Source: Zetaproteobacteria bacterium CG1_02_55_237
GTDB lineage: Bacteria > Pseudomonadota > Zetaproteobacteria > Mariprofundales > Mariprofundaceae
Length of the DNA: 63,252 bases
Reading direction: 5' to 3'
Assembly (NCBI GenBank): GCA_001871195.1
Contig: MNXA01000021.1
Coordinates: 1-63,252, forward strand
The notes below the pieces were generated by a model, which saw only the letters and a list, made by a program, of their open reading frames with translations, did not search any database and had not been told where the DNA came from. Shown one piece after another: positions 6,511 through 38,625 of this stretch (positions within the stretch are counted from its first letter, which is position 1; each line of letters begins with the position of its first letter). The translations under genes and the position numbers were made by a program.

Positions 6511-6980
6511 TTGGGCATATCGATATCGTCGTCATCCTGATGCGTATCGCTGTCAAGGCGGCCGGCGCTTTTGGAACCATAGAGATTGGTCATGAAATAG
6601 ATGAAGCCTGCGGCGATCAAGGCATACACGGCGGCAGCAACATGCCCCCAGGTAAACCAGGCGCGCGGAGCATCCGGGCGATCCCCCCAGAAGGGTAGAG
6701 TCAGACCAAAGGCAACCATCAACACCACAATGATAATGCCGATAAACCATGCCGGCACACGACGCTGTGAATCCGGGATGTTTTCAACCAACTCCCAGTC
6801 CTCAAGTCCACGTCTGTTCTTCCGGTCCTCATCCGAGGCGTAGCCGAAATGATCTTCGGGAATCTTGCCCCATTCCTTGCTAACCGGTGCTGTCGGCCTT
6901 GCTGCCTCTTCCGGCTGCTCTTTCGTCTGCCCGTCGTTTTCTTTCATATTCTTCTGATACCTCGTTGCTTTGCCGATCAT
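6507..6980 (-). CDS. Two-helix membrane protein of oxidase operon, unknown function
   Basis: Encodes up to 157 residues. The N-terminal half is hydrophilic and charged; two transmembrane helices follow (VPAWFIGIIIVVLMVAFGL and a second around AAAVYALIAAGFIYFM), ending in an acidic tail. The WELVENIPDSQRRVPAWFIG stretch before helix 1 recalls the membrane-entry segment of CcoP-type subunits, but no haem motif is present. The ATG at 6980 overlaps the ccoG stop in an ATGA junction; an internal ATG at 6947 is an alternative start. It might be an accessory oxidase subunit or assembly factor. Confidence 0.7.
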   Translation of the reverse strand: MIGKATRYQKNMKENDGQTKEQPEEAARPTAPVSKEWGKIPEDHFGYASDEDRKNRRGLEDWELVENIPDSQRRVPAWFIGIIIVVLMVAFGLTLPFWGDRPDAPRAWFTWGHVAAAVYALIAAGFIYFMTNLYGSKSAGRLDSDTHQDDDDIDMPK

Positions 6981-8302
6981 AAGCTGGTTGGAGATTGAGA
7001 TTTTGCAAAATGCACAACCTGAAACTTTTTCGTCCAGCCGTCATCCGCAGTCACCACCACCCAAAAGCGATACAGGCCCTCAGGGAGGCCGTCGCGGACA
7101 TAGAGCACCACATCCTGACGACCCGCGCTCTCAAACTGCACTGCGTCCTTTTCCAGCGAATATTGACTGTCATCCAGACCTTCGACGCGAATATGCATCT
7201 GTTCAGGGTGGTTGACCTTGTAGGCAATATTGATGCGGTAATCGAGCAATTGATCGCCCTGCTGCGCTTCACCGCGATACACGGAGAAAGAGGCCGGCTC
7301 ATAGCTGACAATACCGTATGCAAACATCCCCGCACCAATCAGGGTGGCGAGTGTAGCTGCGCGCGCGCGACTGAAAAATGAACCAAGCGCGCCGCGATAT
7401 TTCCCCTTCCACTCGTCGCCAAAGCTGAGGCGAAGCAGGCCGGGGCCCTGCAGCTTTTTGCTCTTGCTGTGCAACTCATCGCAGGCCACCACGCATGCGC
7501 CGCAATTAACACAGCTGTCGAACACTTCCGGCTGACGGGGATCAATATCGAGGAAGCAGGAATCCACACAGTAGTTGCAGTTGCTGCAATGGTCCGAGCG
7601 CGAGGCATCGTAGGAAACATGCAGGGTATCGCGGGTCTTGAAGGAATGTTGCCAGACACGGTAAATGCACATGTATTTGCACATCAGGTGACGAATCGCC
7701 ACGATATCTATCAGCATGACGAACACGCAGACCATGTAGATCCAGTGCAGCCCACCGGCCAGTTCCTCGTCATATTGAAAGGAAACAAACGACCAGATGG
7801 CCTGCGGTGAATAGAAATAGAACATCGGAATCAGCGCATAAACCAGCGAGGCACCAAACAGCAGCGACCCGAGTATCAGGTAATTCAACAGTGATTTACG
7901 CCGCACCGCGATCTGCATGCGGGTACCCGTCGTATCCATCATCTTGGCGCGCCTGCCGAGCAGCCGATCCGTCAGATTATTGGCCCATTCCGATACCGTA
8001 TTTTGCGGGCACATCCAGCCGCAGAAAACCGATCCGACGAGTGAATACATCATGACCAGGAGACTGGCGATGAATATCCAAAAACCCATGATAATGAACA
8101 TGTCGGAGAACCAGACCAAGCGGTCCCACATCAACACACCGCCTGCTGCAACATCGATGCGAAACAGCCCGCTGGCCGGAATCAGCACCAGCAGAATCAG
8201 GGTGGCAATCTGCATGTAGCGGCGCGCCGGTCCCAGAGTGGTCGCACCGGGAACGTGTTCTTCAATAACAGGGATCTTGCTTAGTGTTTCATTGGCAGAC
8301 AT
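6977..8302 (-). CDS. ccoG: Cytochrome cbb3 oxidase accessory protein CcoG
   Basis: Encodes about 441 residues. CcoG (FixG/RdxA) is a membrane Fe-S/copper reductase required for cbb3 oxidase copper delivery. Visible features are several transmembrane helices, the FCGWMCPQNTVSEW motif, and a ferredoxin-like segment with two cysteine clusters (CSNCNYCVDSC and CVNCGACVVAC). A C-terminal periplasmic immunoglobulin-like domain follows the last helix. The start at 8302 has AAAGGA seven bases upstream and is preferred over an in-frame codon at 8344 inside the upstream gene. Confidence 0.93.
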   Translation of the reverse strand: MSANETLSKIPVIEEHVPGATTLGPARRYMQIATLILLVLIPASGLFRIDVAAGGVLMWDRLVWFSDMFIIMGFWIFIASLLVMMYSLVGSVFCGWMCPQNTVSEWANNLTDRLLGRRAKMMDTTGTRMQIAVRRKSLLNYLILGSLLFGASLVYALIPMFYFYSPQAIWSFVSFQYDEELAGGLHWIYMVCVFVMLIDIVAIRHLMCKYMCIYRVWQHSFKTRDTLHVSYDASRSDHCSNCNYCVDSCFLDIDPRQPEVFDSCVNCGACVVACDELHSKSKKLQGPGLLRLSFGDEWKGKYRGALGSFFSRARAATLATLIGAGMFAYGIVSYEPASFSVYRGEAQQGDQLLDYRINIAYKVNHPEQMHIRVEGLDDSQYSLEKDAVQFESAGRQDVVLYVRDGLPEGLYRFWVVVTADDGWTKKFQVVHFAKSQSPTSL

Positions 8303-8324
8303 CTGAGTTTCCTTTGCATAAATG

Positions 8325-10976
8325 CTATCTTTGGCGTACGTCAAAAGCCAGCGGACTTAGGCTTGCAAGCCGCTGCCGCCACTGCTCAGCTGCTTCGGCA
8401 TTGCCAGCCTGCGACTCCAGTTGCCACATGGCACGTATGCTGGCCTCATGGTCCGGGCGCAGCACCAGAATACGCTGCAGAGCTTCTCTCCTGCCCAGCC
8501 CCTGCGGATTGCCGTTTTCAAGGCTGGCAAACATCCTGTCGGCCAGCGCAAAAGCCGGCCAGCGATCATCGGCATTGGCCCGGCGAGCCAGCTGCGCCCA
8601 CTTCATCGCCTGCGCTTCATCACCACCAAGCTCCGCCTGCCACAGGCGAACATCCAAAGCACTTGCCGCCCATGCACGTTTAAAAGTGGTGAAATCCTCG
8701 GCCTCGACATGCAGCACAGCAGCTGCCTGCTCTGCATCCTCGCGCCAGGACAACATCCAGCGCCACATGGCAGAGGGATCGGCACCACCGGCGTAGCGCA
8801 CACGCGGCAGTGCGAACTCAATCACCGGCGCCCACTCGTCCTGCACTTGCACATCACCGGGAAACTCTGGAATCATTCCCCAGTAGCGCCCGAGCCATGT
8901 CCACATGCCCTCGCCACCTGTCGCGTCATCGGCAGATGCCGGCGGCATCTCCCGCCAGGCCTGTAATAAACGGGAACTCTGTATCTCACCCTGCTTCACA
9001 CCGACAAGACCCACGCGATAACCGTCGAGAAACAACAGCGCCAGATCATGCTCAGTGGAAAAAACACTGCGAAAGCTGTTCAATACCACCTTCAACATGG
9101 CCACATCGAATTGGTTGAGCGCTATCCATTGAACAAAAATACCGCCCGGCGCGAGCCGTTCTCTTGCCCTGCTGAATTGCTGCACGGAAAGAAGATTGGC
9201 GCGCCCGACCATATCGGGATGAAAGAGATCGCCGACAATCACATCGTAGTGCGCCGTATCGCTGCGCAGAAAGCGCCGCGCATCATCGCGCAACACACGC
9301 ATGTCGGCCATCACGCCGCCATTCACCGCTGCAAACGATCCGGATGCAGCAGCAATCGCCCCAGCCGACAATTCCACAGCAGTGCGTTGCAGTCCGTAAA
9401 AAGGAAGCGAGCCGGAAGCCGTGATTCCCGTACCAAGCCCGAGAAACAGGATAGAACGGGCCTCCGGATGCAAGAGCAAAGGAAGTCGTGCCTGATTCTT
9501 CTGCACGGTGACGGCTGTCGGATCACTGGATGCATCCATACGCTGCAAATCCGAGAGCAAAAGCCGCTGCCCGGATGGCTGTTCAACCACATGCGTCAAA
9601 GCCACGGCATCCTCGTAGAGAGACAGATCATGCGATGCCGCCAGCGCAGGTAGCAGACTGGCTACCGGTGGTAGCTGCCGTACAGGCCACAACAGTAGCA
9701 GCACAACAGGCAGGACCAGCCAGTAGCGCACGTCTTTCACCCAGCGCATACCACAGATAAAGAGAAGCAGTGCCCCGACTCCGAGTGAGGCTGCCGCACC
9801 CAGCCATGGCAGCAGAACAAAACCGGCCACGATGGCGCCCAACCCTGCCCCGATGCTGTTAGCGCCATACCACCAGGCACCGCTCGTGGTGCCGCCTGAA
9901 TCGTTTTCTGCTTCTTCAAAACGCCGGGCCAGAAGCGGTAGCCATGCGCCAAACGCCAGGGTCACCGGCAGGGTCAGCAACAACACCACCCCACCCTGCA
10001 TCAACATACCGCTGAACAGGGAATCAAATTCCGTTCGATTGGCCCACTGACTGACAGTCGGAAGAAAATACTGCCCGGCAATGGCAAGTGTCGCCGCAAT
10101 GGCCGGCAGTATATTTAACCAACGAGCCACGTGTCCTGCCGAACCCAGTCGTCGGGCCAGCACACTACCCAGCCCGATACCCGTGAGAAAAACAAGCAGC
10201 AGCACCGCCAGCACATATTCGGTGCGCAACAACACCATGCCGAACAAACGGCTCCAAATCACTTCGAGTATCAGTGCGGCTGCGCCAATACCTGCATAGG
10301 CCAGCAGATCAGCAAAGGGAGGCCGCAACAGACGCCCGCGCTCAGCCAAGGACTCTTCACTCTTGGACGGCAGGTTCACAGACAGCAGCCATGCCAGAGC
10401 CGCCAGCAACAAGCCGAGAGTTGCCACGGCAAGAAGCGCAGCGCGCCAGCCGAATGCCGGAAGCAGGAATAAGGGCAGCACAGCGCCCAAGGCACCACCC
10501 AGAGCATTGATGCCATACAAACCGCCCAAAGACATGCCCAGCACGCGCGCCCCCTTCAGCGCGAGCGGAAATGCATAACCCATGGCCAGCGCAGCCGGAA
10601 ACAGCAGCAACATAAGCGCCATGCCCTGAACTCCCTGCCAGAGACCAATGGAAAGATCACCAGCAAGGCTTAAAAGACCGGCATCCAACCATGGCATGAT
10701 GAGAGGAAGTGTGAGGGCATAGAGGGCAATGCCCCCTTCAAGAACGGCCAGCAAGCGCAGCGCGCGAGCTGCGCTCATAGCCCGCCCGTAACGCGCGCCG
10801 GCAAGACTCCCTGCACCGAGACCCGCCATGAATGCAGTAACGGTCAATACCACGCCGAAGATACTGATTCCGAACAGCAGGGAGAGCATGCGTGTCCAAA
10901 GGATTTCGTAGGCCAGTGCGGTAATTCCCGTTCCGCCATAGACGAGCAACAGGAGGAAGCGGGAACGCTGATTCAC
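8325..10976 (-). CDS. Large multi-spanning membrane protein with spermidine synthase-like domain
   Basis: Encodes 883 residues. The first ~450 residues form about a dozen or more hydrophobic helices with small-residue-rich transporter-like repeats (the opening GGTGITALAYEILWTRML is typical of fused spermidine-synthase-like proteins). From about 455 a Rossmann methyltransferase fold follows, with the nucleotide-binding region ILFLGLGTGITASGSLPFY and DVIVGDLFHPD, and then a helical, TPR-like C-terminus rich in Ala and Arg. The actual reaction of such fusions is not established; aminopropyl transfer is only implied by the fold. It lies in the oxidase maturation operon, 22 bases upstream of ccoG. 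Confidence 0.8.
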   Translation of the reverse strand: MNQRSRFLLLLVYGGTGITALAYEILWTRMLSLLFGISIFGVVLTVTAFMAGLGAGSLAGARYGRAMSAARALRLLAVLEGGIALYALTLPLIMPWLDAGLLSLAGDLSIGLWQGVQGMALMLLLFPAALAMGYAFPLALKGARVLGMSLGGLYGINALGGALGAVLPLFLLPAFGWRAALLAVATLGLLLAALAWLLSVNLPSKSEESLAERGRLLRPPFADLLAYAGIGAAALILEVIWSRLFGMVLLRTEYVLAVLLLVFLTGIGLGSVLARRLGSAGHVARWLNILPAIAATLAIAGQYFLPTVSQWANRTEFDSLFSGMLMQGGVVLLLTLPVTLAFGAWLPLLARRFEEAENDSGGTTSGAWWYGANSIGAGLGAIVAGFVLLPWLGAAASLGVGALLLFICGMRWVKDVRYWLVLPVVLLLLWPVRQLPPVASLLPALAASHDLSLYEDAVALTHVVEQPSGQRLLLSDLQRMDASSDPTAVTVQKNQARLPLLLHPEARSILFLGLGTGITASGSLPFYGLQRTAVELSAGAIAAASGSFAAVNGGVMADMRVLRDDARRFLRSDTAHYDVIVGDLFHPDMVGRANLLSVQQFSRARERLAPGGIFVQWIALNQFDVAMLKVVLNSFRSVFSTEHDLALLFLDGYRVGLVGVKQGEIQSSRLLQAWREMPPASADDATGGEGMWTWLGRYWGMIPEFPGDVQVQDEWAPVIEFALPRVRYAGGADPSAMWRWMLSWREDAEQAAAVLHVEAEDFTTFKRAWAASALDVRLWQAELGGDEAQAMKWAQLARRANADDRWPAFALADRMFASLENGNPQGLGRREALQRILVLRPDHEASIRAMWQLESQAGNAEAAEQWRQRLASLSPLAFDVRQR

Positions 10977-10996
10977 TGCTTAATCAGGGAAAAAAG

Positions 10997-11398
10997 TCAG
11001 TAGGGCCAGAACCAGGCAATGGAGGTGGCCGCATGCACCGCCGCCAGAGTCAGACTCAAGCCGGCGCTGATCAAGTGCGCCACAAAAACATCCTTGTCGA
11101 AAACAACCATGGCTATGCCCAGACTACCGGTGAGAAAGAGAAGAATGAGCAGTGAAATTCCCATGATAAAGAGTATCTGGTGTTTGCGCTTGGTCTCGAT
11201 GCGCCGTTCGGGTGCTTCCTCATCATCGCCGGCAAACTGCTGCATCACCGCCTCAGCGGACACCTGTGCTCCGCCAGCAACAGCTGTCACTTCGGGAGAG
11301 ACTGAATTTTCAGCCAGTGCACGCTGACCCGGCAGAAGACAAAGCAGGCAAAGCAGCAACAATAGCGGGATCATGCGCACCGGGGAGCAATCAATCAT
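10997..11398 (-). CDS. Signal-peptide membrane protein, unknown
   Basis: Encodes about 133 residues: an N-terminal hydrophobic signal (LLLLLCLLCLLPGQRALA), a polar acidic middle and two C-terminal transmembrane helices. The start at 11398 overlaps the previous ORF by eight bases; an in-frame codon at 11467 lies deep within that gene and is less likely. No family recognised. It is conserved in position within the oxidase operon and might be a small structural or assembly subunit. Confidence 0.65.
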   Translation of the reverse strand: MIDCSPVRMIPLLLLLCLLCLLPGQRALAENSVSPEVTAVAGGAQVSAEAVMQQFAGDDEEAPERRIETKRKHQILFIMGISLLILLFLTGSLGIAMVVFDKDVFVAHLISAGLSLTLAAVHAATSIAWFWPY

Positions 11399-11648
11399 GC
11401 TTTGTTCCCGTCTCGTCGCCCCCACCCCTGACATCGCGCTCCTCAGGCTTATCCCCCCGCATGGCATTGCGCAGGTGAATAATGGCAGAAAGAATCATCG
11501 GAGCGAAAACCAGAAAGAAAAGAAAAACGAAAATCATCCACGGCGTATCAATGGTTACGTGCAGATAGCGGTAGCTATCCACGGCCATGGCTTCCGATGA
11601 CCAGAAGCAAAGCAGCGTGGTCAGCAGAAGATAAGATTTCAGATTCAT
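11391..11648 (-). CDS. Small membrane protein, unknown
   Basis: Encodes 85 residues: signal-like N-terminus ending in SSEAMA, one transmembrane helix (WMIFVFLFFLVFAPMILS) and a charged cytoplasmic tail rich in Asp, Glu and Gly. It starts directly after the stop codon of the sulfatase-modifying-factor-like gene and overlaps the next gene, so it is strongly coupled in the operon. No family recognised. Confidence 0.65.
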   Translation of the reverse strand: MNLKSYLLLTTLLCFWSSEAMAVDSYRYLHVTIDTPWMIFVFLFFLVFAPMILSAIIHLRNAMRGDKPEERDVRGGGDETGTKHD

Positions 11649-12722
11649 TTATTTCTCCTCATTCGCCACGACATCGGCCGCACAGCGGAAGCCGAAAAAG
11701 TCTGAGGCATAATTGGGCATGGAATAATTGCGGTGGTAAGTATAGGACGAAAATGGATCGCTTTTCCACGACCCGCCGCGCATCACAAAATAAACCAGCC
11801 TTTCAACTTCATTCGAGCCGCGTTGATAATCCGGATCGATATCCTTGGCTTGAAATATCTCTCCGGAAGCCGGAGTGCCCGGATATGGGGTAAATTGATC
11901 AGCCACCCATTCCTGAACATTGCCTGCCATATCCATCACGCCATAAGGACTGGCACCGTTCGGATAGGCATTTACCGGCGTGGTACGACCAACTTTGTAA
12001 TAGGTATTCAGATTTTCCGGGTGCATCGCCGAACCCCACGGCCAGCTTCGCCCATCGGTTCCACGCGCAGCCTTTTCCCATTCAGCCTCTGTCGGCAGAC
12101 GTTTACCCGCCCATTCGCAGTAATCCCGTGCGTTGTACCAGGACACCATGGTAACCGGGTGAAGCTCAAGCCCTCGCGGGATATGACCATCCTTCCAGTT
12201 CAGTGGCGGACGATATTTTCCGGAAGCAACAAACCGGGCGTACTGTGCCTGAGTCACAGGGAATTTGTCGATTCGATAGGCATGGGTACGAACCTGATGT
12301 GCCGGTTTGTTCTGTTCATTGGTGCGCGGGTCATCACTGCCCATGGTGAACACACCGGCAGGAATGGAAATCATCCATTCCACATCACGCCATTGTTCGT
12401 CGCCAAGCAATGCCCGCGCCTCATCCGGTGTATAGGTACGAATGCCGGCGCCATATTTTTCGTTGGCCTCCTGCACGTAAATCTCTTCTCCCGCCGCACG
12501 GATATGCTCATGCATGTCCCGAACATCATAACCGGCCTTGCCGCGCATCTCATCCATGCGCATTGAGCCTAATTCCATGACGTGAAGAGAGCCGCCGACC
12601 ATGGCGATGGTAATACAGACAACAAGGGTGGCGCTTAACCAGCGTTTACGGCGACGTCTTTCGGCCGGAGTTATTGGGGTGCGCTTCACCTTAGCGACCG
12701 GAACCTTCCTCAAAATCGTCAT
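11649..12722 (-). CDS. Membrane-anchored formylglycine-generating-enzyme-like protein (SUMF1/FGE-sulfatase fold)
   Basis: Encodes about 357 residues. A basic cytoplasmic N-terminus and one transmembrane anchor (WLSATLVVCITIAMVGGSL) precede an FGE-sulfatase domain (about residues 120-350) with family motifs IPAGVFTMGS, VTQAQYARF, WYNARDYCEWAGKRLPTEAE, GVMDMAGNVQEW and MRGGSW. The fold is shared by formylglycine-generating enzyme, EgtB and PvdO. No sulfatase gene is present in the window, so sulfatase activation is unlikely to be its job; a role in oxidase or cytochrome maturation is inferred from the operon. GTG at 12689 is an alternative start directly after the upstream stop codon. Confidence 0.82.
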   Translation of the reverse strand: MTILRKVPVAKVKRTPITPAERRRRKRWLSATLVVCITIAMVGGSLHVMELGSMRMDEMRGKAGYDVRDMHEHIRAAGEEIYVQEANEKYGAGIRTYTPDEARALLGDEQWRDVEWMISIPAGVFTMGSDDPRTNEQNKPAHQVRTHAYRIDKFPVTQAQYARFVASGKYRPPLNWKDGHIPRGLELHPVTMVSWYNARDYCEWAGKRLPTEAEWEKAARGTDGRSWPWGSAMHPENLNTYYKVGRTTPVNAYPNGASPYGVMDMAGNVQEWVADQFTPYPGTPASGEIFQAKDIDPDYQRGSNEVERLVYFVMRGGSWKSDPFSSYTYHRNYSMPNYASDFFGFRCAADVVANEEK

Positions 12723-13203
12723 CGGGCAAGGATTCAGAATCGGCATGGTGCGGCACCACACCATCATCCCATGCATAACGTTTACGAATGAATATTTCGC
12801 CTATAAATCCGCCAATCGCACAAAATTCCATTTGCAGAATCACAAACATGATCCACATGCCCCAAGGCAGCAGTTGCGCACCAGCAGCCATATCGGCATA
12901 GGAGGGATGCTGGTAATGCCACAACATGACAAAGGCAGGTGGAAAATGGGCCAGATACTTGCCACCGAAGCCATAGATCATACCGATGGCAATACCGACA
13001 GCCACAGGAAGAGCGCTCATCGCCACGATCCATGCCATATTGAAGCTGGCCAGGCCCATGAAATATTCGAGACGTACATCGAGGAGCAACATTCCGGCTT
13101 CGTAGAGTAGCACGCCAGCAACAAAGGCGGAGATTCCCCTCAACCAGTACGGCGCCCACGTGTAACCAACGGCCGAGACTGCCTTGCTCTGTTGTTTGCC
13201 CAT
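12691..13203 (-). CDS. Four-helix membrane protein of oxidase operon, unknown
   Basis: Encodes 170 residues with about four transmembrane helices and an acidic C-terminus (DDDFEEGSGR). Histidines and tryptophans cluster near helix ends (MLWHYQHPSYAD), which could indicate haem or metal contact, though nothing identifies a cofactor. It lies between a membrane cytochrome c and the FGE-like gene, overlapping the latter by about 30 bases if the ATG is used there. Confidence 0.68.
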   Translation of the reverse strand: MGKQQSKAVSAVGYTWAPYWLRGISAFVAGVLLYEAGMLLLDVRLEYFMGLASFNMAWIVAMSALPVAVGIAIGMIYGFGGKYLAHFPPAFVMLWHYQHPSYADMAAGAQLLPWGMWIMFVILQMEFCAIGGFIGEIFIRKRYAWDDGVVPHHADSESLPDDDFEEGSGR

Positions 13204-15309: not shown

Positions 15310-16245
15310 TTATTTCAGATTGATGACGAAGTCGATGAGTTTGCGTGCCTCACTATCGGCAGCAGGCATCGGCACCGCAGGCGGATAAATGCTTTCGCCA
15401 CGTGCATATGCCAGATACTTCTCATCCCATCCTGGCAGATCAACTGCATTGCCATCCGCATCCACGTCGCCCCACAGGTAATCGTAGCGCGGCATAATAG
15501 AATGTGGCTGCACAAGGCGTGGGTTGAAGAAGTGCATCACCATCCACTCACGCGATGAGTTGCGCGAACCAACGTGCAGCAGATCAGGGGCCTTGCGGTC
15601 GGAACCGAAGGTGGTCGGGCTTTCACCGTTAAAGTCACCCACCAGCGGCGGACGACCGAACGACTGCCAATCCTGTGTCTGCTCAGGCAGCAGGGTATGG
15701 CACCACCAGCAGCCTTCACGCACAAACATGGTCTTGCCGGAACCTGCCAGCAATTTCTCGTCAGCAGCCTTCAGTGTTGCATCCGCAGTCCAACCCTTGG
15801 TTGCGGTTGCAAACTCGATGTATGGAACGTCATCAGCAGTAGAGCGAACAAGGAATACACCACCCTGTGCCTCATCAGCCTGACCGATCTTACCTAACTC
15901 TTCCGAAGCCTTCTGCACGTCATCGCCCAGAATGCCGTCGTGAGTCAAGCCGCTCGGGAAATGTGTCCCGGCCGGAAAAACAAACGCGTCAGTCTTGTCG
16001 ATGGCCTTACCGGTCATCGGGTCCTTGGTCAACACAACCTTGACGGGCTTGTCCTTACCCTGCAGGAATGGGTCGTAGTAGTTGAAGCCAGTCTCCCAAC
16101 CGTAGGTCAACTGCTTCTCCAGAGCGATTTTTGTCGAGGACATCGACGAAATATCAAGGCCTGGCAGAATGATGGTAACAAACATCGACAAACTCAGCGC
16201 AAAGCCAAACATCCAACATCCGATTCTATATTCTCTAAATGCCAC
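15310..16245 (-). CDS. ccoO: Cbb3-type cytochrome c oxidase subunit II (CcoO), long form
   Basis: Encodes 311 residues. An N-terminal anchor (about 10-28) precedes a periplasmic domain with the haem motif CWWCH at 179-183 and the CcoO-like surroundings FVREGCWWCHTLLPEQT and HSIMPRYDYLW, where Met is the distal ligand. CcoO transfers electrons to CcoN. Canonical CcoO is about 200 residues with the haem close to the anchor; here some 120 extra residues (30-150) are inserted, which is unusual. Follows ccoN by 68 bases. Confidence 0.88.
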   Translation of the reverse strand: MAFREYRIGCWMFGFALSLSMFVTIILPGLDISSMSSTKIALEKQLTYGWETGFNYYDPFLQGKDKPVKVVLTKDPMTGKAIDKTDAFVFPAGTHFPSGLTHDGILGDDVQKASEELGKIGQADEAQGGVFLVRSTADDVPYIEFATATKGWTADATLKAADEKLLAGSGKTMFVREGCWWCHTLLPEQTQDWQSFGRPPLVGDFNGESPTTFGSDRKAPDLLHVGSRNSSREWMVMHFFNPRLVQPHSIMPRYDYLWGDVDADGNAVDLPGWDEKYLAYARGESIYPPAVPMPAADSEARKLIDFVINLK

Positions 16246-16313: not shown

Positions 16314-17720
16314 TTAACGCGTGTAGGCGATTTCAGCCGGCTGACGACCAACAGGCACTGGATCACCAGCACGTGCGGTCATAATCATATTGTACAGCCA
16401 GATGATATTACCGAAGAACACCATGGTGCCACCCAACCAGCGAACGATCATGTAAGGATGCTCTGCGATCACAACGTCCACATAAGGAACCTCGTAAATC
16501 TTGGCAGCACCCTGGATCAGGCCGGAAATGGTCATCGACGTCCAGTACAGCGAGAAGCCGATCAGCAGCATCCAGAAGTGGAAGTTGGCCAGCGATGCGG
16601 ACCACAGCTTGCGACGCAGCAACACCTGCATGCCGTAGTACACCGAGGCAGCTTCAGCAAAGGTCGAGAAGCCGAGCAGAGCCAGATGGGCATGTGCCAC
16701 AATCCAGCCTGTACCATGGATGTACCAGTTGATGGCACGAGTCTGCTGGAAACCACCCTGCATGTTCAGCGGAATAGCAAGCAGCACACCGGTGATGGTG
16801 AACTTGATCTCGATATTCTCGACGAACAAGGCCCAACGACCCTGCATGGTCAGCAAGATGTTACACACATAGGCAACAGCCGGCACCAGAATCAGCACGC
16901 CTTCCACAGACGCGAAGGACTTCAGCCATTCCGGAAGCGGTGAGCTCATCAGATGATGGGCAGCCGGCGTGGAGTAGAACACCACAATGGACCAGAAGTG
17001 CAGATGACCCACACGATGCGAATACAGCGGGTTACCGGTGATCTTCGGCACGATGTAGTAGGTAATAGCAGCAGCAACCGGGGTAATCAGCAGACCCAGG
17101 ATGTTATGTGCGAACCACCATGTCATGTATGCCTCGTTCAGACCGGTCAAATGGAGCCATTCAGGAGTGTTACCGATAAGGAACACAATGATGGTCATGA
17201 ACATACAGCCGGCGAAGAACCAGTTGGTGGTATAGATACCCTGTGTACGACGATTAACGATCGTCATCCACACGTTCAGGGACCAAGGCACTACCATCAC
17301 AAAGGCAATGTACAGGTCGATTGGCCAGATATGGTCGGAATACTCACGGCCGGAAGTAACACCGGACCAGAGCAATGCCAGAGCCAAGCACAGGCCCACA
17401 TTATACAGCAAGCAATTCCAGACGCCGAGTTTCTCGGACCACAGCTTGGTATTACCCAGAGCCGGGGTGATGTACATCATGGAAGCAGCAAAAGCCATGG
17501 CAATCCAGCCGAAAATCACGGCATGCACATGGACCTGACGCATATGACCGAACTGCAGCGAATACAGGCCATGGAACAAGTCAGGAAAAGCGAGCTTGGC
17601 AGCATTAAAAGACCCAAGACCTGTTCCGATAACGAACCAGGCAATGGACGATATGCCAAAGAAAATCGCCGCAGTACCCTGCGGGATATCATCTTCTTTT
17701 GAAAACAAATATTTCAGCAT
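16314..17720 (-). CDS. ccoN: Cbb3-type cytochrome c oxidase subunit I (CcoN), divergent
   Basis: Encodes 468 residues, about twelve transmembrane helices; catalytic subunit of a C-family haem-copper O2 reductase. Ligand residues are present: RQVHVHAVIFGW (low-spin haem His), WWFAHN (CuB His), FYSTPAAHHL (two CuB His, with the Tyr six residues upstream that is cross-linked in this family) and IVAHAHLALLG (haem His pair). The presence of the Tyr supports oxygen rather than nitric oxide reduction. The HVHAVIFGW motif differs from the HTNAVIFA of typical proteobacterial CcoN, so it belongs to a divergent branch. Confidence 0.92.
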   Translation of the reverse strand: MLKYLFSKEDDIPQGTAAIFFGISSIAWFVIGTGLGSFNAAKLAFPDLFHGLYSLQFGHMRQVHVHAVIFGWIAMAFAASMMYITPALGNTKLWSEKLGVWNCLLYNVGLCLALALLWSGVTSGREYSDHIWPIDLYIAFVMVVPWSLNVWMTIVNRRTQGIYTTNWFFAGCMFMTIIVFLIGNTPEWLHLTGLNEAYMTWWFAHNILGLLITPVAAAITYYIVPKITGNPLYSHRVGHLHFWSIVVFYSTPAAHHLMSSPLPEWLKSFASVEGVLILVPAVAYVCNILLTMQGRWALFVENIEIKFTITGVLLAIPLNMQGGFQQTRAINWYIHGTGWIVAHAHLALLGFSTFAEAASVYYGMQVLLRRKLWSASLANFHFWMLLIGFSLYWTSMTISGLIQGAAKIYEVPYVDVVIAEHPYMIVRWLGGTMVFFGNIIWLYNMIMTARAGDPVPVGRQPAEIAYTR

Positions 17721-18567: not shown

Positions 18568-19032
18568 CTACTTATACTTGTCCAGCGCCTTGATGACTGC
18601 CATAAAATCATCTTCGATAAACTGTTTGCGGTGAAATACATATTGGCGCTTGGTGCCCATGGCATCCATGCCGGTGAGACCAAATGATTTACCCGCCTGA
18701 TCCGCAAAAAAGCGAATATCCTTCATCAGGGATGCGTATTGCCCGCCCTTCAGCTTCATGCGCACACGCTCACGATTAATATCCAGAGACACCGGAGCCT
18801 GCGGATGAATCAGCAGACGGCGCATCACCCGCCCTCCACCGACCATCATAAAAAAGAAGCCCAGAAACATCAGCGCATAGCCTATCCACTGCTCATCGCC
18901 ACCGGCATACCACAACTTCATCCCCCAAAGCAGAAGCACACCAACGGTGGGAACATACAAAGCCAGATCCCATAAGGTGCCGGCCTTGTCCGGCCGAAGA
19001 TCACACTGTACTTCCTGCCAGTTGCGCGCCAT
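18568..19032 (-). CDS. Two-helix membrane protein of the mini-oxidase-like operon
   Basis: Encodes 154 residues. Two transmembrane helices lie around 25-42 and 50-66 (a PH-like or DUF-type arrangement), followed by a soluble C-terminal domain (about 75-154) with basic strands and GKSFGLTGMDAMGTKRQY. It starts one base after the thioredoxin-like lipoprotein gene and is the last gene of this operon. No family assigned; an assembly or anchoring role for the neighbouring complex is possible. Confidence 0.62.
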   Translation of the reverse strand: MARNWQEVQCDLRPDKAGTLWDLALYVPTVGVLLLWGMKLWYAGGDEQWIGYALMFLGFFFMMVGGGRVMRRLLIHPQAPVSLDINRERVRMKLKGGQYASLMKDIRFFADQAGKSFGLTGMDAMGTKRQYVFHRKQFIEDDFMAVIKALDKYK

Positions 19033-19566
19033 TTATTTCCCCTGCCCCGTCTGCTTAGCCTCACCGGTCAAATCGGCCAGTATCGGATCGATCTCCTGAT
19101 AAAGCATGCGCCCCGGATATACCACTTCCACATTGCCCTGCGCATTGATCACAAAGGTCCACGGCTCACCGCGCACCTGGAAGGCATCGTAGGCCTCGGG
19201 GTTGTAGTATTGATCCATATGCAGGAACAGAACCTTGTGCTCGTATTTGTTGAGCATCTCCTTCATCAACTGCAGCTGCTTGTCGCACTGCGTGCAGTGA
19301 CCCGGCGTGGCAAACTCAAGCACAATCGGCTTGTTCAGCTTGAGCGCTTCATCAACGGACAGTTCATACATGCGCGGGTCGGGATAGCGATAACTGGTCA
19401 ATTTGGCCATATCGCCACCCACATCGGCCAGCGTCTTGGTCTTCAACGACGGTACCGGCTTGCCCTGCATGAATACCCCGCCACCACCAACACTGCCAAA
19501 ATCCATGTCGCACGCACCAAGTGCGGCAACACCCAGCAGCATCAAGCCAAGCGCAAGGGATTTCAT
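19033..19566 (-). CDS. Thioredoxin-fold lipoprotein (CxxC)
   Basis: Encodes 177 residues with a lipoprotein signal (lipobox LGAC, Cys19). The thioredoxin-like domain has FATPGHCTQCDKQ (Cys91, Cys94), a typical redox site, and the cis-Pro region RGEPWTFVINAQG. Such envelope thioredoxins keep the cysteines of apocytochromes reduced for haem attachment or handle copper-site thiols. It overlaps the half-length oxidase-like gene by four bases, implying a role with that complex. Confidence 0.85.
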   Translation of the reverse strand: MKSLALGLMLLGVAALGACDMDFGSVGGGGVFMQGKPVPSLKTKTLADVGGDMAKLTSYRYPDPRMYELSVDEALKLNKPIVLEFATPGHCTQCDKQLQLMKEMLNKYEHKVLFLHMDQYYNPEAYDAFQVRGEPWTFVINAQGNVEVVYPGRMLYQEIDPILADLTGEAKQTGQGK

Positions 19567-20078
19567 CGTGATTGCCGCCAGCCGGCACAGGTGCGGAAAA
19601 TGTTATAGGCCCATATGCAGTTGGCCAGCAGCACCAGAGTGCCGAAGATGCCCATCACCGCAAGCCATGGCCGAACCAGGACTTCCACTTCAGCCGGCGT
19701 CATGGTCACACTGGCCATACCACCGATGGTGCCCGCTACGCTGAAGAACACCACCATGCCGAGTAAGCCAAAGTTATGCGTCCAGAAATGCAGCTTGACC
19801 AGCGGCATACTGTAGATCGGCCGCCTTACCAGGCGTGGGATGATGTAGTACACCGCAGCAAAAATAGCCATCTCCACCCAGCCCAGCAGGTTGATATGCG
19901 TATGAGCGCGGACAATAAGCTTGCCGAACATGCGATGATCAACGAAATGCCTGAACTCATGAATACCACCCATCAGGGCACCCCATGAGAACCCGATGAT
20001 GCTGTAGATAACACAGGCAAATACAAACCAGAGCGTGTATTTTACGTATTCCTCATCTTCCCATGGCTGGTAGTTCAT
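19563..20078 (-). CDS. Half-length haem-copper oxidase subunit I-like protein
   Basis: Encodes 171 residues with about four transmembrane helices. Two segments recall CcoN/NorB: RAHTHINLLGW (compare VHVHAVIFGW of the CcoN in this window) and YYIIPRLVRRPIYSMPLVKLHFW. Only the first third to half of a full subunit I (460-480 residues) is represented; the CuB and high-spin haem ligand helices are absent, so oxygen or NO reduction is not expected. It may bind a b-type haem as an electron relay or sensor. Four-base overlaps on both sides bind it to the cytochrome c and thioredoxin-like genes. Confidence 0.72.
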   Translation of the reverse strand: MNYQPWEDEEYVKYTLWFVFACVIYSIIGFSWGALMGGIHEFRHFVDHRMFGKLIVRAHTHINLLGWVEMAIFAAVYYIIPRLVRRPIYSMPLVKLHFWTHNFGLLGMVVFFSVAGTIGGMASVTMTPAEVEVLVRPWLAVMGIFGTLVLLANCIWAYNIFRTCAGWRQSR

Positions 20079-20695
20079 GGCTTCTTCATCTCCTGAGTTG
20101 CGGCATCATTGGCGCGCTTGAACGCATCCGGATCATCGCGCACATCTTTGTATTTTTCTTTCCATTCCTTCGGCGCCCACGTCTTGACCATTGAATCGAT
20201 GAACGGCGAATCTCCCTTGGGGGGAATCGGAGCAGAAGAAGAACCCTGCTCGGATTTCAACTCCGACAGAAAAACGGCAAGGGCATGCAGATCCTCAGCA
20301 GGCAGCTTCGCCACATAGGCCGCAGAAGTCTGCCCTGCCTTATGGTCCATGGTTGCCGCCGGATAGTTTGTTTCAGGATCCTGCAGGAAGGCAAACATCC
20401 ACTGCATGGTCCGGCGCGAGCCGATGCCATCCAGATCCGCCGTCTGCCCCATATTGGTGCCGTTACGCAGGGCGCGATGACAGGTAGTGCAGCCGTTGGT
20501 GCGGAACAGATAGGAGCCGCGCTGACCCTCGGCAGACAGATTTGCTGTTGTCTTGGTTTCAAATAAAGGCTTGTCGGAGTTGGCTATGAAAACCTGCATG
20601 ATGATGTAGGCGATCACCGCAAACACGACAAAAACACCGGCTACGGTAAAGAGAATTTTCTCCCCGGGCTTCAGTGGCTGTTTATTGCTTGCCAT
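20075..20695 (-). CDS. Membrane-anchored cytochrome c (NorC/CcoO-like)
   Basis: Encodes 206 residues from ATG 20695, chosen for the AGAGAG upstream; longer in-frame starts exist to 20773. One anchor helix (14-37), then a haem motif CTTCH at 69-73 in GSYLFRTNGCTTCH, the spacing and context seen in NorC and CcoO. A Met in NYPAATMDHKAG may be the distal ligand. It is the first gene of a four-gene operon and probably donates electrons to, or accepts them from, the half-length subunit I-like protein that follows. Confidence 0.83.
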   Translation of the reverse strand: MASNKQPLKPGEKILFTVAGVFVVFAVIAYIIMQVFIANSDKPLFETKTTANLSAEGQRGSYLFRTNGCTTCHRALRNGTNMGQTADLDGIGSRRTMQWMFAFLQDPETNYPAATMDHKAGQTSAAYVAKLPAEDLHALAVFLSELKSEQGSSSAPIPPKGDSPFIDSMVKTWAPKEWKEKYKDVRDDPDAFKRANDAATQEMKKP

Positions 20696-20947
20696 ATAAT
20701 AGATCTCTCTTGTGGTTCTGTGATTTCTGCATATTTCCGGCACCCGGTTGCGCGGCGGACCGCACTTTAGCATAGCCTTCCGCCTCGCGGCAAACCCTGA
20801 CTTGGCAAACCACCCACTCGAGATTTAAACCCTGCAGATATACTTATTATTATATATATAAATACGCAAGCAGTGCCCTTGACAGGGATGACCCCGAAAC
20901 TAATGCTTTACCCTCGAACACCGAACAGCTTCATAAGGAGATACAAC

Positions 20948-21946
20948 ATGCATCGAATTCTTTCCTCTTTTGCCATTACCCTGTTCCTTTTCGGCATCGG
21001 CACAGCCCAGGCAGGCAGCAGGCCAGCCGACGTCCCCGATGGTATGGGACCGCTTCCCGCTGTTGCACCTATTCCGGCCGACAACCCCATGAGCGCGGGT
21101 AAAATAGAACTCGGCAAGAAACTGTATTTCGATCCCGCACTTTCCAAGAGCGGCAATATCTCCTGCAACTCCTGCCACAACCTGGCCAACGGCGGCGTCG
21201 ACAACCAGCGCTTCTCTATTGGCCATCTATGGCAACACGGCGGCCGCAATGCCCCGACCGTACTCAATTCTGCGTTCTGGACCACCCAGTTCTGGGATGG
21301 TCGCGCACCGCAACTTGAGGACCAGGCCAAGGGACCGCCGATGAATCCGGTTGAAATGGCCGATGACAATCCCAAGCAACTGATGGCCCGCCTGAAGGAT
21401 GCCGGCTATGCGCCGTTGTTTTCCAAGGTGTTCGGTAAAAACTCTCTGAATTACGACAATATGGCCAAGGCCATTGCTGCCTTTGAACGCACCCTGCTCA
21501 CCCCGGATGCGCCGTTTGATCGCTATGTGCGCGGCGAGGCAGATATATCCAAGGCAGCCAAACGCGGCATGCGCAAAGTGGATGAAATCGGCTGCACCGG
21601 CTGTCATTCGGGCCCGCTGTTCACCAACAACAGCTTCCAGCGCTTTGATTATGGCACGGATGCCGGACGCAAGGCTGTAACCGGCAAGGCCGAGGACGAC
21701 CATTTCTTCCGCGTACAATCATGGCGCAATGTCGCCCTGACCGCCCCTTATTTCCACGACGGCTCCGTTGCCACCCTTGATGAAGCTGTACGCATCATGG
21801 CCAAGAAGCAGCTGGATACCGACCTCTCAAACAAGGATGTCTCGGATATTGTCGCCTTTTTGAACACCCTCACCGGCACCCAGCCTGAAGTAATCTACCC
21901 GCTGCTTCCCCGCCCTGCCGGTCGGGCGCTGGACTTCCGCGACTGA
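20948..21946 (+). CDS. ccpA: Dihaem cytochrome c peroxidase
   Basis: Encodes 332 residues with a signal peptide (cleavage after GTAQA). Two haem c motifs, CNSCH (73-77) and CTGCH (216-220), plus NAPTVLNSAFWTTQFWDGRAP and SWRNVALTAPYFHDGSVATL, are characteristic of bacterial di-haem peroxidases that reduce periplasmic H2O2 with cytochrome electrons. ATG 20948 has AAGGAG at the right distance. The gene is divergent from the mini-oxidase-like operon; 20696-20947 holds the shared AT-rich promoter region, with TTGGCA and TTAAAC 17 bases apart as a candidate. Confidence 0.93.
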   Translation: MHRILSSFAITLFLFGIGTAQAGSRPADVPDGMGPLPAVAPIPADNPMSAGKIELGKKLYFDPALSKSGNISCNSCHNLANGGVDNQRFSIGHLWQHGGRNAPTVLNSAFWTTQFWDGRAPQLEDQAKGPPMNPVEMADDNPKQLMARLKDAGYAPLFSKVFGKNSLNYDNMAKAIAAFERTLLTPDAPFDRYVRGEADISKAAKRGMRKVDEIGCTGCHSGPLFTNNSFQRFDYGTDAGRKAVTGKAEDDHFFRVQSWRNVALTAPYFHDGSVATLDEAVRIMAKKQLDTDLSNKDVSDIVAFLNTLTGTQPEVIYPLLPRPAGRALDFRD

Positions 21947-34223: not shown

Positions 34224-35012
34224 TTAGTCGCGGCTTGGTGAACGCGGATTACCCGGCGTTGTTGGCTTGGCCAGTGTCAGGAATGCGGCGAGGTTCTGGA
34301 TATCCTCATCCGTCAGGTTCTTGGCCACTGCGCGCATCTGACCCATGTAGTCGTTGGTGCGTGCGTTATCTGCCTTGCTGGCAATCTCTTCGGCAGTAAG
34401 CGTTTTGCTACCAAACTCATTCGCTGCATTGCGGAACGAGGTCAACTCATGCTGCAGGTAAACGTAGTTCTGACCACCGACAGCTGGATACATACGGCCA
34501 GCGGAACGACCGTGGAAACCATGGCAGCTCTCGCAAGCAGGAACACCATGATCAGGAGCTCCATACTCAGCAATCATCTTGCCCTTCGCCGGATCACCGA
34601 CTTCGGCACCGTCACGACGCAACTGATCAAGATTGGAACCAATATATGGTGTCTTCAGGGTGTGCACATAGGAAGCCACATCCTTCATGTCCTGCTCCGA
34701 CAAAGCCTTGCCGATATCGTTCATCTGATACATCGTATCATCAGTACGTGCGCCTGATGCAAAATCAGCCAACTGCTTCAGCACATAAGTATCGATCTGG
34801 TAGGCCAAGCGTGGTGTACCCACATTGTCGTCACCCAAGCCGTCCGCAGCATGACAGCCCTGACAAGCCGGGACATCATCGCCCTTACCAAACTGGTAAA
34901 TAACACGGCCCCTGTCGACATTGCCCAGTCCTTCCTCAGCACTGACAGTCGCCGGCGCAACAAAGCAAGCAGCAATTGCCACAAAACTCGTGGTAATTAT
35001 TATCCGTTTCAT
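34224..35012 (-). CDS. Dihaem cytochrome c4-like protein
   Basis: Encodes 262 residues with a signal peptide (cleavage after TVSA). Two homologous cytochrome c domains carry CQGCH (50-54) and CESCH (160-164), each with a downstream Met (MYQMNDIG and YMGQMRAVAK). This is the layout of cytochrome c4, a periplasmic electron shuttle to terminal oxidases. A strong terminator follows. Upstream lies a 45-residue membrane peptide likely in the same transcript. Confidence 0.9.
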   Translation of the reverse strand: MKRIIITTSFVAIAACFVAPATVSAEEGLGNVDRGRVIYQFGKGDDVPACQGCHAADGLGDDNVGTPRLAYQIDTYVLKQLADFASGARTDDTMYQMNDIGKALSEQDMKDVASYVHTLKTPYIGSNLDQLRRDGAEVGDPAKGKMIAEYGAPDHGVPACESCHGFHGRSAGRMYPAVGGQNYVYLQHELTSFRNAANEFGSKTLTAEEIASKADNARTNDYMGQMRAVAKNLTDEDIQNLAAFLTLAKPTTPGNPRSPSRD

Positions 35013-35326: not shown

Positions 35327-35710
35327 TTAGTCCGGCGCAATCAATAGTGCCCCGGAAAGAAAGACAAACAAGCGGATAATAATAATACCACGACTCTGCA
35401 CACGATGACTTTCACGCGCTGTTTCATCTCTGGCAAGCAACTGACGACCTGCGAGTGCCTGCAGGACGTATAAGGAGTACAAGGTCAGAATCAGAAAAAA
35501 ATGTGTCCAGACAAGAAAAGAAAAAAGATCACCATCATCAATCAAGCGCTTTTTCCAATCGTGGGTAAGGTACAGCCAAACGGGAAATAACATGTCAAAA
35601 AGCACCACGCTGCTCATGAGCGCGATATGCCAGTTATGGCGCTTGCGCAAATAATAAGCCAGCGCCAAAACAAGGAAGCTGATCAGAACAAGAATCACGG
35701 ATAATTTCAT
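35327..35710 (-). CDS. Four-helix membrane protein, unknown
   Basis: Encodes about 127 residues from MKLSVIL with four hydrophobic helices. Histidines occur at helix ends (RKRHNWHIALM, WTHFFLILTLYSLYVL), a pattern seen in DUF420-type or haem-associated small membrane proteins, but no firm family match. It precedes no obvious partner; the cytochrome c4-like unit lies downstream. Confidence 0.6.
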   Translation of the reverse strand: MKLSVILVLISFLVLALAYYLRKRHNWHIALMSSVVLFDMLFPVWLYLTHDWKKRLIDDGDLFSFLVWTHFFLILTLYSLYVLQALAGRQLLARDETARESHRVQSRGIIIIRLFVFLSGALLIAPD

Positions 35711-35854
35711 AAGGTAGAGCCTAGCGACATTACTCAGGCACACCAGTATCGATCAGAGACACCCTGCTGCAAAATCGCCGGGCAACTCTGCTGTAGCGCA
35801 TGACTCCATGATGGGGCTATGTGCCCCGTTGTCGCCTATCACCTTCGTGTTTAT

Positions 35855-36322
35855 TCAAGCAATACGCCACTCGGCCAGCGATGCTCGCGCCGTACCTTTG
35901 CTGATATCCGGAATAATGCACAGCTCCAGCGCCGATACGCCGTGCAGTTCAACCACGTAATCTTCAAGCTCGCGGGTTGAGTCCGGCGAGCTGAAATTGT
36001 ACTGCTGCCGGGCAATGTCATGGTAGGACTGGCGATCTGCAGACCAGCGCAAGACAAATTCCTGCGTGCGCTCCTGACTGTTTTCCTCGAAGATTAAACG
36101 AATCATCCCGATCTTCTGTGCCGCATCAAACAGCAGGCGAATCGTCTGTTCTCCGGCCGCTGCAGCCCGCCAGCATCCACCACCCGGAACCAGCGCCGCC
36201 TCAACCGGAAAGGCCTCGTCCTCGGATGTAATCTCTACCTGTGCGACAGCTTCCAGATTCAGCCAGGCATGCTCCACCTCCGAGGCTTCCTTAATATCCC
36301 GCTCTATGACCCGTTTGCGCAT
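35855..36322 (-). CDS. Discoidin-like (F5/8 type C-like) beta-sandwich protein
   Basis: Encodes 155 residues, no signal peptide or membrane segment. The strands (IRLLFDAAQKIGMIRLIFEE, EFVLRWSADRQSYHDIARQQYNF, DISKGTARASLAEWRIA) follow the pattern of cytoplasmic discoidin-like proteins sometimes annotated as carbohydrate-binding. Ligand unknown. Confidence 0.6.
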   Translation of the reverse strand: MRKRVIERDIKEASEVEHAWLNLEAVAQVEITSEDEAFPVEAALVPGGGCWRAAAAGEQTIRLLFDAAQKIGMIRLIFEENSQERTQEFVLRWSADRQSYHDIARQQYNFSSPDSTRELEDYVVELHGVSALELCIIPDISKGTARASLAEWRIA

Positions 36323-36503
36323 CTTCTACCCCTTGTCGCCCGTTCCGGCGCTATCCGGACTATAGACCTATCATGGACTTATTGCATTCAGGGGGTGTTT
36401 GGCAGGCCCGTACGGTTGGCTGGTGGAACAAGCCGTAATCATCCTATAGCCTGCTCTGAATCAAGTAGCATGAGTGGCGCTGTCGAGACTGAGGGGTTAT
36501 GCA

Positions 36504-37370
36504 ATGAAGGGAATTATTCTTGCCGGCGGATCGGGAACACGACTGTATCCAGCCACATATGTGGTCAGTAAACAATTACTGCCAATCTACGACAAGCCAA
36601 TGATTTATTATCCGCTTTCCACCCTGATGCTCGCAGGCATCCGTGATGTCCTGGTCATCTCGACTGAAGCTGACCTTCCCAGATTTGAGCAGTTATTGGG
36701 CGATGGCACTCAGTGGGGCATGAACTTTTCCTATGCTGTACAGCAGGAGCCTCGAGGGCTGGCTGAGGCATTCATCATCGGCAGGGAATTCGTTGGTAAA
36801 GATACGGTTTCGCTTATCCTCGGAGATAATATCTTTTATGCCCAGGGCCTAGCTGCGAAACTGGAAAAAGCCGTTGAAAAAACTGAAGGGGCAAGCATCT
36901 TCTGCTATCAGGTGCGCGATCCCGAGCGCTACGGCGTGGCTGAGATCAACACATCCGGAAGGGTACTCTCCATTGTTGAAAAACCATCCAAGCCTGCTTC
37001 ACACTGGGCTGTAACCGGACTTTATTTCTACGACAATCAGGTGATTGATATCGCACGGGAAGTACAACCTTCGGAGAGAGGCGAACTGGAAATCACAACG
37101 GTCAATCAATGGTATCTTGAACACAACCTTCTGACCGCAGAACTACTGGGGCGTGGTGCTGCGTGGCTGGATACGGGAACGCACGAATCACTGATGGATG
37201 CGGCTCAATATGTCGAGGTCATCGAGCGCAGGCAAGGCATGAAAATCGGCTGCCCGGAAGAAGTGGCATGGCGAATGGGCTTTATCGGCGATGCGGAGCT
37301 TGAACGATTGGGCGATGCGCTGGGAAAAAGCGGCTATGGGGAATATCTGAAAGGTCTTCTGCCACACTGA
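36504..37370 (+). CDS. rfbA: Glucose-1-phosphate thymidylyltransferase
   Basis: Encodes 288 residues from ATG 36504 (GAGGGG upstream). The nucleotidyl-transferase signature [11 protein letters not shown] and the [20 protein letters not shown] block identify RfbA/RmlA, which makes dTDP-glucose, the first step of dTDP-rhamnose synthesis. RELEITTVN and the C-terminal [10 protein letters not shown] are typical. The other rml genes are not in the window, so they lie elsewhere. Confidence 0.95.
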
Positions 37371-37500
37371 GGCCAGCAAAGAACACGCTATTTATGTGTG
37401 CCTTCAGCTCACCGCAATCGTAAGTTGGGCTGGATGGCTGGCTGCTATTTAATACATCCCTATCTTGCGCTGGCTATTTCCGACGTTAGCCTGCCAACGC

Positions 37501-38040
37501 ATGTCAAACTCCCCTTCCCCCACTGGTTCAAATAACGAGCATCTTTATCTGGTTAAATTCCTGATCATGTCGGTTGTTTCGTTTTTCATCGGCACCGTAC
37601 ATGGCCTCTTGCAGGTCATCCCGTCGGTGCGCGCCTGGCTGGATTCCATCGGCAGCCCCTATGGCGGCCCTGGCCACATGATTGATCCACTGGCGCATGC
37701 CCATATCAATCTTGTCGGCGGCGTCACCATCCTCGGCATGGCCGTTACCTATTACATGCTGCCCAAAATTACCGGCAAACACATCCATTCGCACTGGATG
37801 GCCGAGCACTCCTTCTGGTGGACAACCATCGGCGTAAGCACTTTCTACACAGCCCTGCTTATCTTCGGCTTTATTGAAGGCAACCTGTGGCTGACCGATC
37901 CTGCGCAGGTTCCGGCAGTGCACAAATATTACGGACCGGTTATTTCGGTTTCCGCCAGCGTTCTTGCCGTCGGTTTCTGGTTCTATCTGGCCAACGTCAT
38001 GCTCACCCTGAAGGATATTTATAAAAAACCCTCTGCATGA
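37501..38040 (+). CDS. Half-length haem-copper oxidase subunit I-like protein (second copy)
   Basis: Encodes 179 residues from ATG 37501. About four or five transmembrane helices with LAHAHINLVGGVTILGMAVTYYMLPKITGKHIHS: the AHAHIN motif and the YYxxP loop are shared with the protein at 19563-20078 and with CcoN/NorB helix 2-3. The distal half of subunit I is missing. Other histidines (H near VHGLLQ, HSFWW, HKYYGP) could ligate a b-type haem. It overlaps the following cysteine-rich gene by four bases. Confidence 0.7.
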   Translation: MSNSPSPTGSNNEHLYLVKFLIMSVVSFFIGTVHGLLQVIPSVRAWLDSIGSPYGGPGHMIDPLAHAHINLVGGVTILGMAVTYYMLPKITGKHIHSHWMAEHSFWWTTIGVSTFYTALLIFGFIEGNLWLTDPAQVPAVHKYYGPVISVSASVLAVGFWFYLANVMLTLKDIYKKPSA

Positions 38041-38585
38041 GTTCTGAGTTAAACGTAACAGGCATGCTCGACTGCGGATGCCCATCCGAATATCCGCAGT
38101 GGGATGGGAAGGATGTTGATCTTGGTGCCTGGCTGGTACACGAACAACGCGTGCCGATGTTCCTGCATATGCCGATTGGCTATGAGGCGGCACTCGACCG
38201 GCAGCACAAGGATATCAAACGCCTGCACCTCACCGAGCGCTGGCCGGGTTTTGTGTTAACCCAGTCGGCGGCATTTCGGGGCCGCATTCTATGCCCGCTG
38301 AGCGAAGACACCTCTCCGGCCCGGCGCACCTTTCGTCTGAAGAACCCCTACCATGTACGCTGCAAGCTGATGCACGGCGATATCGGCGGCAGCGTCAGGG
38401 GTGCGGTGCAGACCATGCAGTCGGCCCTGCTCGACGAAGGCAAAATGCCCAAGGAGCTTTTTCTCTGCTACCTGACCTGCCCGCGCTGCCGCGATGAACG
38501 TGGCGGCATTAAAATCCTGCTGCTCAGACATTGGGTGAAGAGCAAGAAACTGCAGGAACGCCTGGATAAGCAGCAGAAACGCTGA
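38037..38585 (+). CDS. Cysteine-rich soluble protein, unknown
   Basis: Encodes 182 residues without signal or membrane helix. Cysteines are arranged as DCGCPSEYP at the N-terminus and CYLTCPRCRDERGG near the C-terminus, with further Cys in RILCPL and VRCKLM; this suggests a metal centre. No family recognised. Coupled by an ATGA overlap to the half-length oxidase-like gene, so the two probably work together. Confidence 0.62.
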   Translation: MSSELNVTGMLDCGCPSEYPQWDGKDVDLGAWLVHEQRVPMFLHMPIGYEAALDRQHKDIKRLHLTERWPGFVLTQSAAFRGRILCPLSEDTSPARRTFRLKNPYHVRCKLMHGDIGGSVRGAVQTMQSALLDEGKMPKELFLCYLTCPRCRDERGGIKILLLRHWVKSKKLQERLDKQQKR

Positions 38586-38600
38586 TGATTGATACAAGCA

Positions 38601-38625
38601 AAGGGCCCTATGCGGCCCTTTTTTC
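38601..38625 (+). terminator. Rho-independent terminator
   Basis: Stem AAGGGCC / GGCCCTT with a six-base loop, followed by TTTT-C. It ends the two-gene unit containing the second half-length oxidase-like protein. Confidence 0.8.

Follow-up and report, generated by a model that had tools for sequence, protein, structure and literature searches.

A single-repeat COX1 protein and its cysteine-containing partner as possible accessory factors of a distal-type cbb3 oxidase in Zetaproteobacteria

Distal cbb3 oxidases are highly expressed terminal oxidases of the neutrophilic iron oxidizers (Zetaproteobacteria, Gallionellaceae), and to our knowledge little has been learned so far about their subunits and maturation. 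Two cbb3 forms with differing subunit make-up occur in Zetaproteobacteria and Gallionellaceae (PMC7029218, PMC8788666, PMC10734462). In the Firmicutes, DUF420 proteins (CtaM) are required for oxidase assembly (PMC8239418). In this article we analyse two overlapping genes, P1 and P2, in a 63,252-nucleotide stretch of zetaproteobacterial DNA (contig MNXA01000021.1, hereafter the window, to which all positions refer). Our preferred, still tentative reading is that their products are heme-handling accessory or assembly factors of a distal-type cbb3 oxidase.

An earlier note, made from the DNA letters of the window, had described a 179-residue membrane protein with the motifs LAHAHINLVGG and YYMLPKI, and precisely such a protein is encoded by P1 (forward strand, ATG at 37501 to TGA at 38040). 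It passed the cut-off of Pfam COX1 (PF00115; E 4.9e-11, 42.6 bits against 34.8), the match covering only its C-terminal region (profile positions 309-411 of 436), and missed that of the CcoN equivalog TIGR00780 (40.6 bits against 583, model positions 305-455). A search of the PDB with the single P1 sequence gave chance matches only and a profile was required; with the one built from 37 relatives the top matches were solved cbb3 CcoN chains (9g6b, E 4.9e-10; 3mk7, E 3e-8). In 3mk7 the best match covers residues 343-451, two earlier stretches match weakly, and H66-A-H68 of P1 is aligned with H345-V-H347, whose two histidines on helix X bind the high-spin and the low-spin heme. The same profile matches three regularly spaced stretches in the CcoN of the window, corresponding to all three repeats, and this pattern recurred in each of the eight other CcoN proteins in which the profile scored. 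From this regularity we conclude that P1, as judged by its sequence, corresponds to one of the three four-helix repeats that make up the subunit I fold, and most closely to the last (helices IX-XII). The protein had been called half-length and an alignment to CcoN helices 1-4 had been proposed for it; both points have to be corrected, since P1 corresponds to one third of subunit I, four helices out of twelve, and fits the C-terminal repeat best.

The AlphaFold model of P1 (pLDDT 78, with a weak stretch at residues 51-60) consists of four long helices. In many oxidases the region on which it superposes is the final third of subunit I (Z 14.7 with 9g6b, 15.5 with the best chain); since helical bundles may reach Z 13 by chance, the identity of the protein rests on the sequence match. 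The twelve core helices in three repeats which define subunit I are not found in these 179 residues, and among the six canonical histidine ligands, including the three of CuB, P1 has an equivalent only for the helix-X H-x-H. The copper ligands of subunit I are located in helices VI and VII, and because these helices are absent, P1 is no oxidase by itself. Nevertheless it is well conserved: all 37 aligned rows share R44, the GSPxxGPG loop, D62-P-L-A-H66-A-H68, H103, W106-W107 and H141, and H34 and H59 are kept in more than 90% of them. The conserved histidines that a true family would be expected to show (H66, H68, H103, H141) are thus present in a wider alignment. L019, a distant relative from genome G029, keeps H34, H59 and H68 and has lost H66 and H103.

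P2 (forward strand, ATG at 38037 to 38585) codes for a soluble protein of 182 residues, in which both motifs reported for the cysteine-rich partner, DCGC and CYLTCPRC, were found. Its coupling to P1 through an ATGA is also real, the junction (GC-ATGA-GTT) being a 4-base overlap. A GC-rich hairpin stands about 15 bases past the P2 stop, and together with a T run it forms a terminator-like site on the forward strand (38600-38621, a consensus match only). The terminator-like pattern said to close the pair is accordingly present; such patterns barely exceed chance in the stretch (6 found, 4.2 expected). No Rfam family or promoter was matched at the P1-P2 locus.

The pairing extends far beyond this genome. 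P1 was detected in 43 of 78 Zetaproteobacteria genomes and P2 in exactly those 43, among them the cultured Mariprofundus ferrooxydans PV-1, M. erugo P3 and Mariprofundus sp. EBB-1, and the two genes lie side by side in 42 of the 52 named loci. The start of P2 falls between -4 and +27 bases from the P1 stop in nearly all of these 42, the exceptions being a 136-base gap (L092) and a locus where the P1 frame is broken (L095). The ten loci lacking the pair comprise two contig ends (L084, L125), L111, and seven in which P2 is missing (L115, L116, L119-L123). The suspicion that the arrangement might be confined to one genome can be dropped, and the family with a conserved cysteine-protein partner is a real one. 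In Gallionella-like genomes P1 stands inside the oxidase cluster and P2 was not found in the five searched, so P2 is dispensable for the P1 family. Two further genomes deserve mention. In G299 one P1 lies beside, and overlaps, a DUF420-like gene with no adjacent P2 (L111), and an apparent second P1, in another frame, precedes P2 on the ccoN contig (L150). At L123:1355-2799 the most distant named P1 (48% identity) is transcribed divergently from an adjacent CcsA-like gene for cytochrome c biogenesis; P2 is missing from this genome, and the only ccoN there is a remote one (33%).

The protein encoded by P2 scored above the cut-off of PF20603 ('Bact_hydrolase'; 34.2 bits against 27), as did 26 of the 26 rows of its alignment. 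C13, C15, C148 and C151 are invariant among its relatives, C144 (the C of 'CYL') is not, and H35 and H44 are conserved in more than 90%. Its model (pLDDT 84.7) has a GyrI-like fold; it resembles the C-terminal effector domain of EcmrR (Foldseek E 1.2e-3, VIA Z 13.1), the Listeria hydrolase lin2189 (VIA Z about 11.7-11.8) and the heme-binding SOUL/HEBP proteins (VIA Z about 10-11, with 11.0 for heme-bound HEBP1 in the 1000-chain list), the GyrI domains scoring higher than the last group. By sequence, Pfam returned no SOUL family match for P2, and a PDB sequence search returned nothing significant. An evident signal peptide was not seen in the sequence, and P2 comes directly after P1, which would have its C terminus in the cytosol given the orientation of CcoN; P2 is therefore probably a cytosolic protein. 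Canonical PF20603 proteins (CCP...H-I-P...TTCPxC; L130-L134) occur in unrelated Pseudomonadota, at loci where no oxidase genes were seen, and a match exists in Methanosarcina acetivorans.

Both the Pfam name of this family and the shared fold of lin2189 (Z about 11.7) could be taken to mean that P2 is a detoxifying GyrI-like hydrolase and P1 a mere neighbour. We regard this as most improbable: GyrI-like cyclopropanoid hydrolases require two glutamates (PMC5684135), and hydrolase activity of P2 is unlikely because the alignment of its relatives contains no invariant acidic residue; moreover, the exact co-occurrence with P1 points to a joint role. The best fold matches, the effector-binding domains of EcmrR and BmrR, together with the gene overlap would rather suit a sensor pair, in which P1 perceives O2, NO or redox state through a heme and P2, with its GyrI/BmrR effector-domain fold, relays the signal. 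However, no DNA-binding or signalling domain was found within the 182 residues of P2, and such a function seems improbable to us.

The window carries a second single-repeat COX1 protein, sCOX3 (P0003; reverse strand, 19563-20078), which belongs to the same oxidase system. It matches the same part of COX1 as P1 (Pfam E 4.4e-14) and the same part of the NCBI ccoN model. The resemblance of the two proteins, which share about 24% identity, was rightly noticed. They had been regarded as two independent copies with different soluble partners; instead they co-occur across genomes, and in the relatives a single cbb3 gene cluster holds them inside it or at its ends, so that they are two components of one system. 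The catalytic subunit of this system is encoded by a divergent ccoN (reverse strand, 16314-17720), and a ccoO-like subunit with a FixO domain by 15310-16245 on the same strand. The ccoN product is far below the ccoN equivalog cut-off and about 33% identical to other CcoN proteins; given that two cbb3 forms have been reported, we infer that it represents the 'distal' form of Ducluzeau et al. Around sCOX3, an operon at 18568-20773, conserved in Gallionella-like genomes, contains a cytochrome c, a thioredoxin-like lipoprotein (CTQC, with a 4-base overlap to sCOX3) and a 154-residue membrane protein. A MauG/MbnH-like diheme enzyme (20873-21946) adjoins the oxidase operon.

In the 78 genomes P1 and sCOX3 are found together in 40, P1 only in 3, sCOX3 only in 4 and neither in 31; within one patchy genus the corresponding numbers are 14, 1, 1 and 7. 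The Fisher p values (8e-14 and 2e-4, respectively) ignore kinship and are descriptive only. Three of the four genomes with sCOX3 only are less than 90% complete. P1 and the DUF420-like gene are distributed in the same manner (41, 2, 2 and 33). Among 398 genomes of the phylum, full-strength matches to the ccoN of the window were restricted to Zetaproteobacteria, in nearly the same genomes as P1; outside the class a ccoN of this type (73-78% identity) was detected in 9 of 12 P1 genomes. In the relatives P1 adjoins or lies inside the cluster of oxidase and ccoG-like genes, and in Gallionella-like loci (L115, L116, L119-L122) the oxidase cluster itself encodes P1 along with sCOX3 and the thioredoxin-like lipoprotein. 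One genome, G009, has the oxidase and no P1.

The relatives mostly share one gene order. A diheme cytochrome c and a DUF420-like gene are on one strand and P1-P2 on the other, followed by genes for a small cytochrome c, a lipoprotein and another c-type cytochrome and by a ccoG-like gene, then by spermine-synthase-like and FGE-domain genes and c-type cytochromes up to ccoO/ccoN. In the window this order is disrupted and P1-P2 is about 17 kb away from the oxidase genes. The diheme cytochrome c (34224-35012) and the DUF420-like gene, M127 (35327-35710), are here on the reverse strand, as are the small cytochrome c (5440-5808) and the lipoprotein (5826-6158), which adjoin P1-P2 in relatives. M127 codes for a four-helix protein with four invariant histidines; it scored below the DUF420 cut-off (E 0.0017, 19.1 bits against 30.5) with nearly the whole profile covered, and its homologues in relatives are divergent and adjacent to P1. 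A local rearrangement has taken place here: an rmlA-type gene (36474-37370) and an F5/8-type protein (35855-36322) stand between M127 and P1, and the block 35330-37500 flanks the oxidase cluster on the side opposite to that seen in relatives. By the order of the relatives, the region 6977-12776 holds the ccoG-like, the spermine-synthase-like large membrane and the FGE-sulfatase-domain genes, between the small cytochromes and ccoO/ccoN.

The strong co-occurrence of P1, sCOX3 and the distal ccoN, the high conservation of P1 and its location inside the oxidase cluster of Gallionella-like genomes would all agree with stable structural or electron-transfer subunits, that is, with P1 (and sCOX3) as small b-type cytochromes which extend or regulate CcoN, and P2 as a cytosolic regulatory subunit. 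This is the strongest rival of the accessory or assembly role, and we consider it rather unlikely: the zetaproteobacterial pair forms a divergent transcription unit of its own at the edge of the cluster, followed in the window by the terminator-like site, P2 is less conserved and missing from several P1 genomes, and G009 possesses the oxidase without P1.

The origin of the single repeat was approached with a tree of 44 repeat units, in which long branches are present. P1 joined the third repeats of CcoN, beside the group formed by the proximal and distal sequences (support 84/87), and sCOX3 was placed elsewhere; constrained trees were not rejected (p-AU 0.08-0.19). A common clade of P1 and sCOX3, separated in the best tree, gave p-AU 0.08, and P1 as a recent fragment of distal ccoN, disfavoured by the tree, gave 0.19. 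That P1 is similar chiefly to the last third of CcoN could hint at a decaying fragment of a duplicated ccoN, which is scarcely credible: P1 is intact across dozens of species at 48-90% identity with its invariant residues, and it stands beside, not inside, the repeat-3 group of CcoN, with the reservation that the test did not reject distal CcoN as its source (p-AU as given above). It is conceivable, if very unlikely, that P1 and/or sCOX3 form oligomers of single subunit I repeats with heme bound between the protomers; were this true, they would be a living counterpart of the four-helix unit whose triplication would have given rise to the twelve-helix heme-copper oxidases. With a free-standing repeat of subunit I at hand, the idea that the oxidase was assembled from repeated four-helix units becomes accessible to experiment.

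The accessory or assembly role that we favour is suggested by the fact that three small proteins travel together, namely P1 and M127, both four-helix membrane proteins with conserved histidines, and the soluble P2, and it is supported by the predicted fold of P2, a type that binds small ligands and, in the SOUL branch, heme. P1 would reside in the inner membrane, where H34 and the helix-X-type pair H66-x-H68 would probably hold a b-type heme at the periplasmic face. P2 would be a cytosolic GyrI/SOUL-fold protein with a putative four-cysteine metal site, its synthesis kept in step with that of P1 by the overlapping genes. P1, P2 and the neighbouring DUF420-like protein would then likely hold heme and pass it to CcoN, or protect heme there. 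Several observations speak against this role. Four Zetaproteobacteria genomes hold sCOX3 without P1, hence P1 is not strictly required, and Gallionella-like genomes manage without P2. The GyrI fold takes many ligands and the SOUL match is lacking by sequence, H66 and H103 are missing in the distant relative from G029, and a structural subunit is equally compatible with the co-occurrence.

In the literature searched, whose coverage excludes most subscription journals, we found no description of short or single-repeat CcoN proteins or of the P1-P2 pair, and neither is described in the accessible parts of the reports on the proximal and distal cbb3 forms of iron oxidizers, where two forms with different subunits are known (PMC7029218, PMC8788666, PMC10734462). 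What looks new is the single-repeat form and the pairing of P1 with P2, whereas the parts belong to kinds already known. The single-repeat COX1 proteins, the DUF420-like protein and P2 provide a short list of testable factors for the distal cbb3 oxidase.

Compared with the known systems, P2 is a member of PF20603 above the Pfam cut-off and differs from the canonical genes outside the class, beside which the 3.5-kb loci examined showed no COX1-like gene. Its predicted fold resembles that of GyrI-like/BmrR effector domains and, with lower scores, those of SOUL/HEBP proteins and cyclopropanoid hydrolases. The identity to these structures is about 10%, the CxC and CxxC cysteines are additional, and of the marks of the hydrolases, a catalytic glutamate pair and an aromatic cage, no glutamate is seen among the invariant residues. 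P1 shares with CcoN, the subunit I of the C family, the last repeat with the H-x-H of helix X and, one helix further on, the FW motif, and repeats 1 and 2 show a weak likeness too; unlike CcoN it has 4 helices instead of 12 and no copper ligands of helices VI and VII, which makes a heme-copper site impossible in P1 alone. DUF420/CtaM in its relation to CtaA is, like P1, a four-helix fraction of a larger heme protein and is tied to oxidase assembly (PMC8239418); P1 differs in being a COX1 repeat, the DUF420-like protein of this locus being its neighbour M127.
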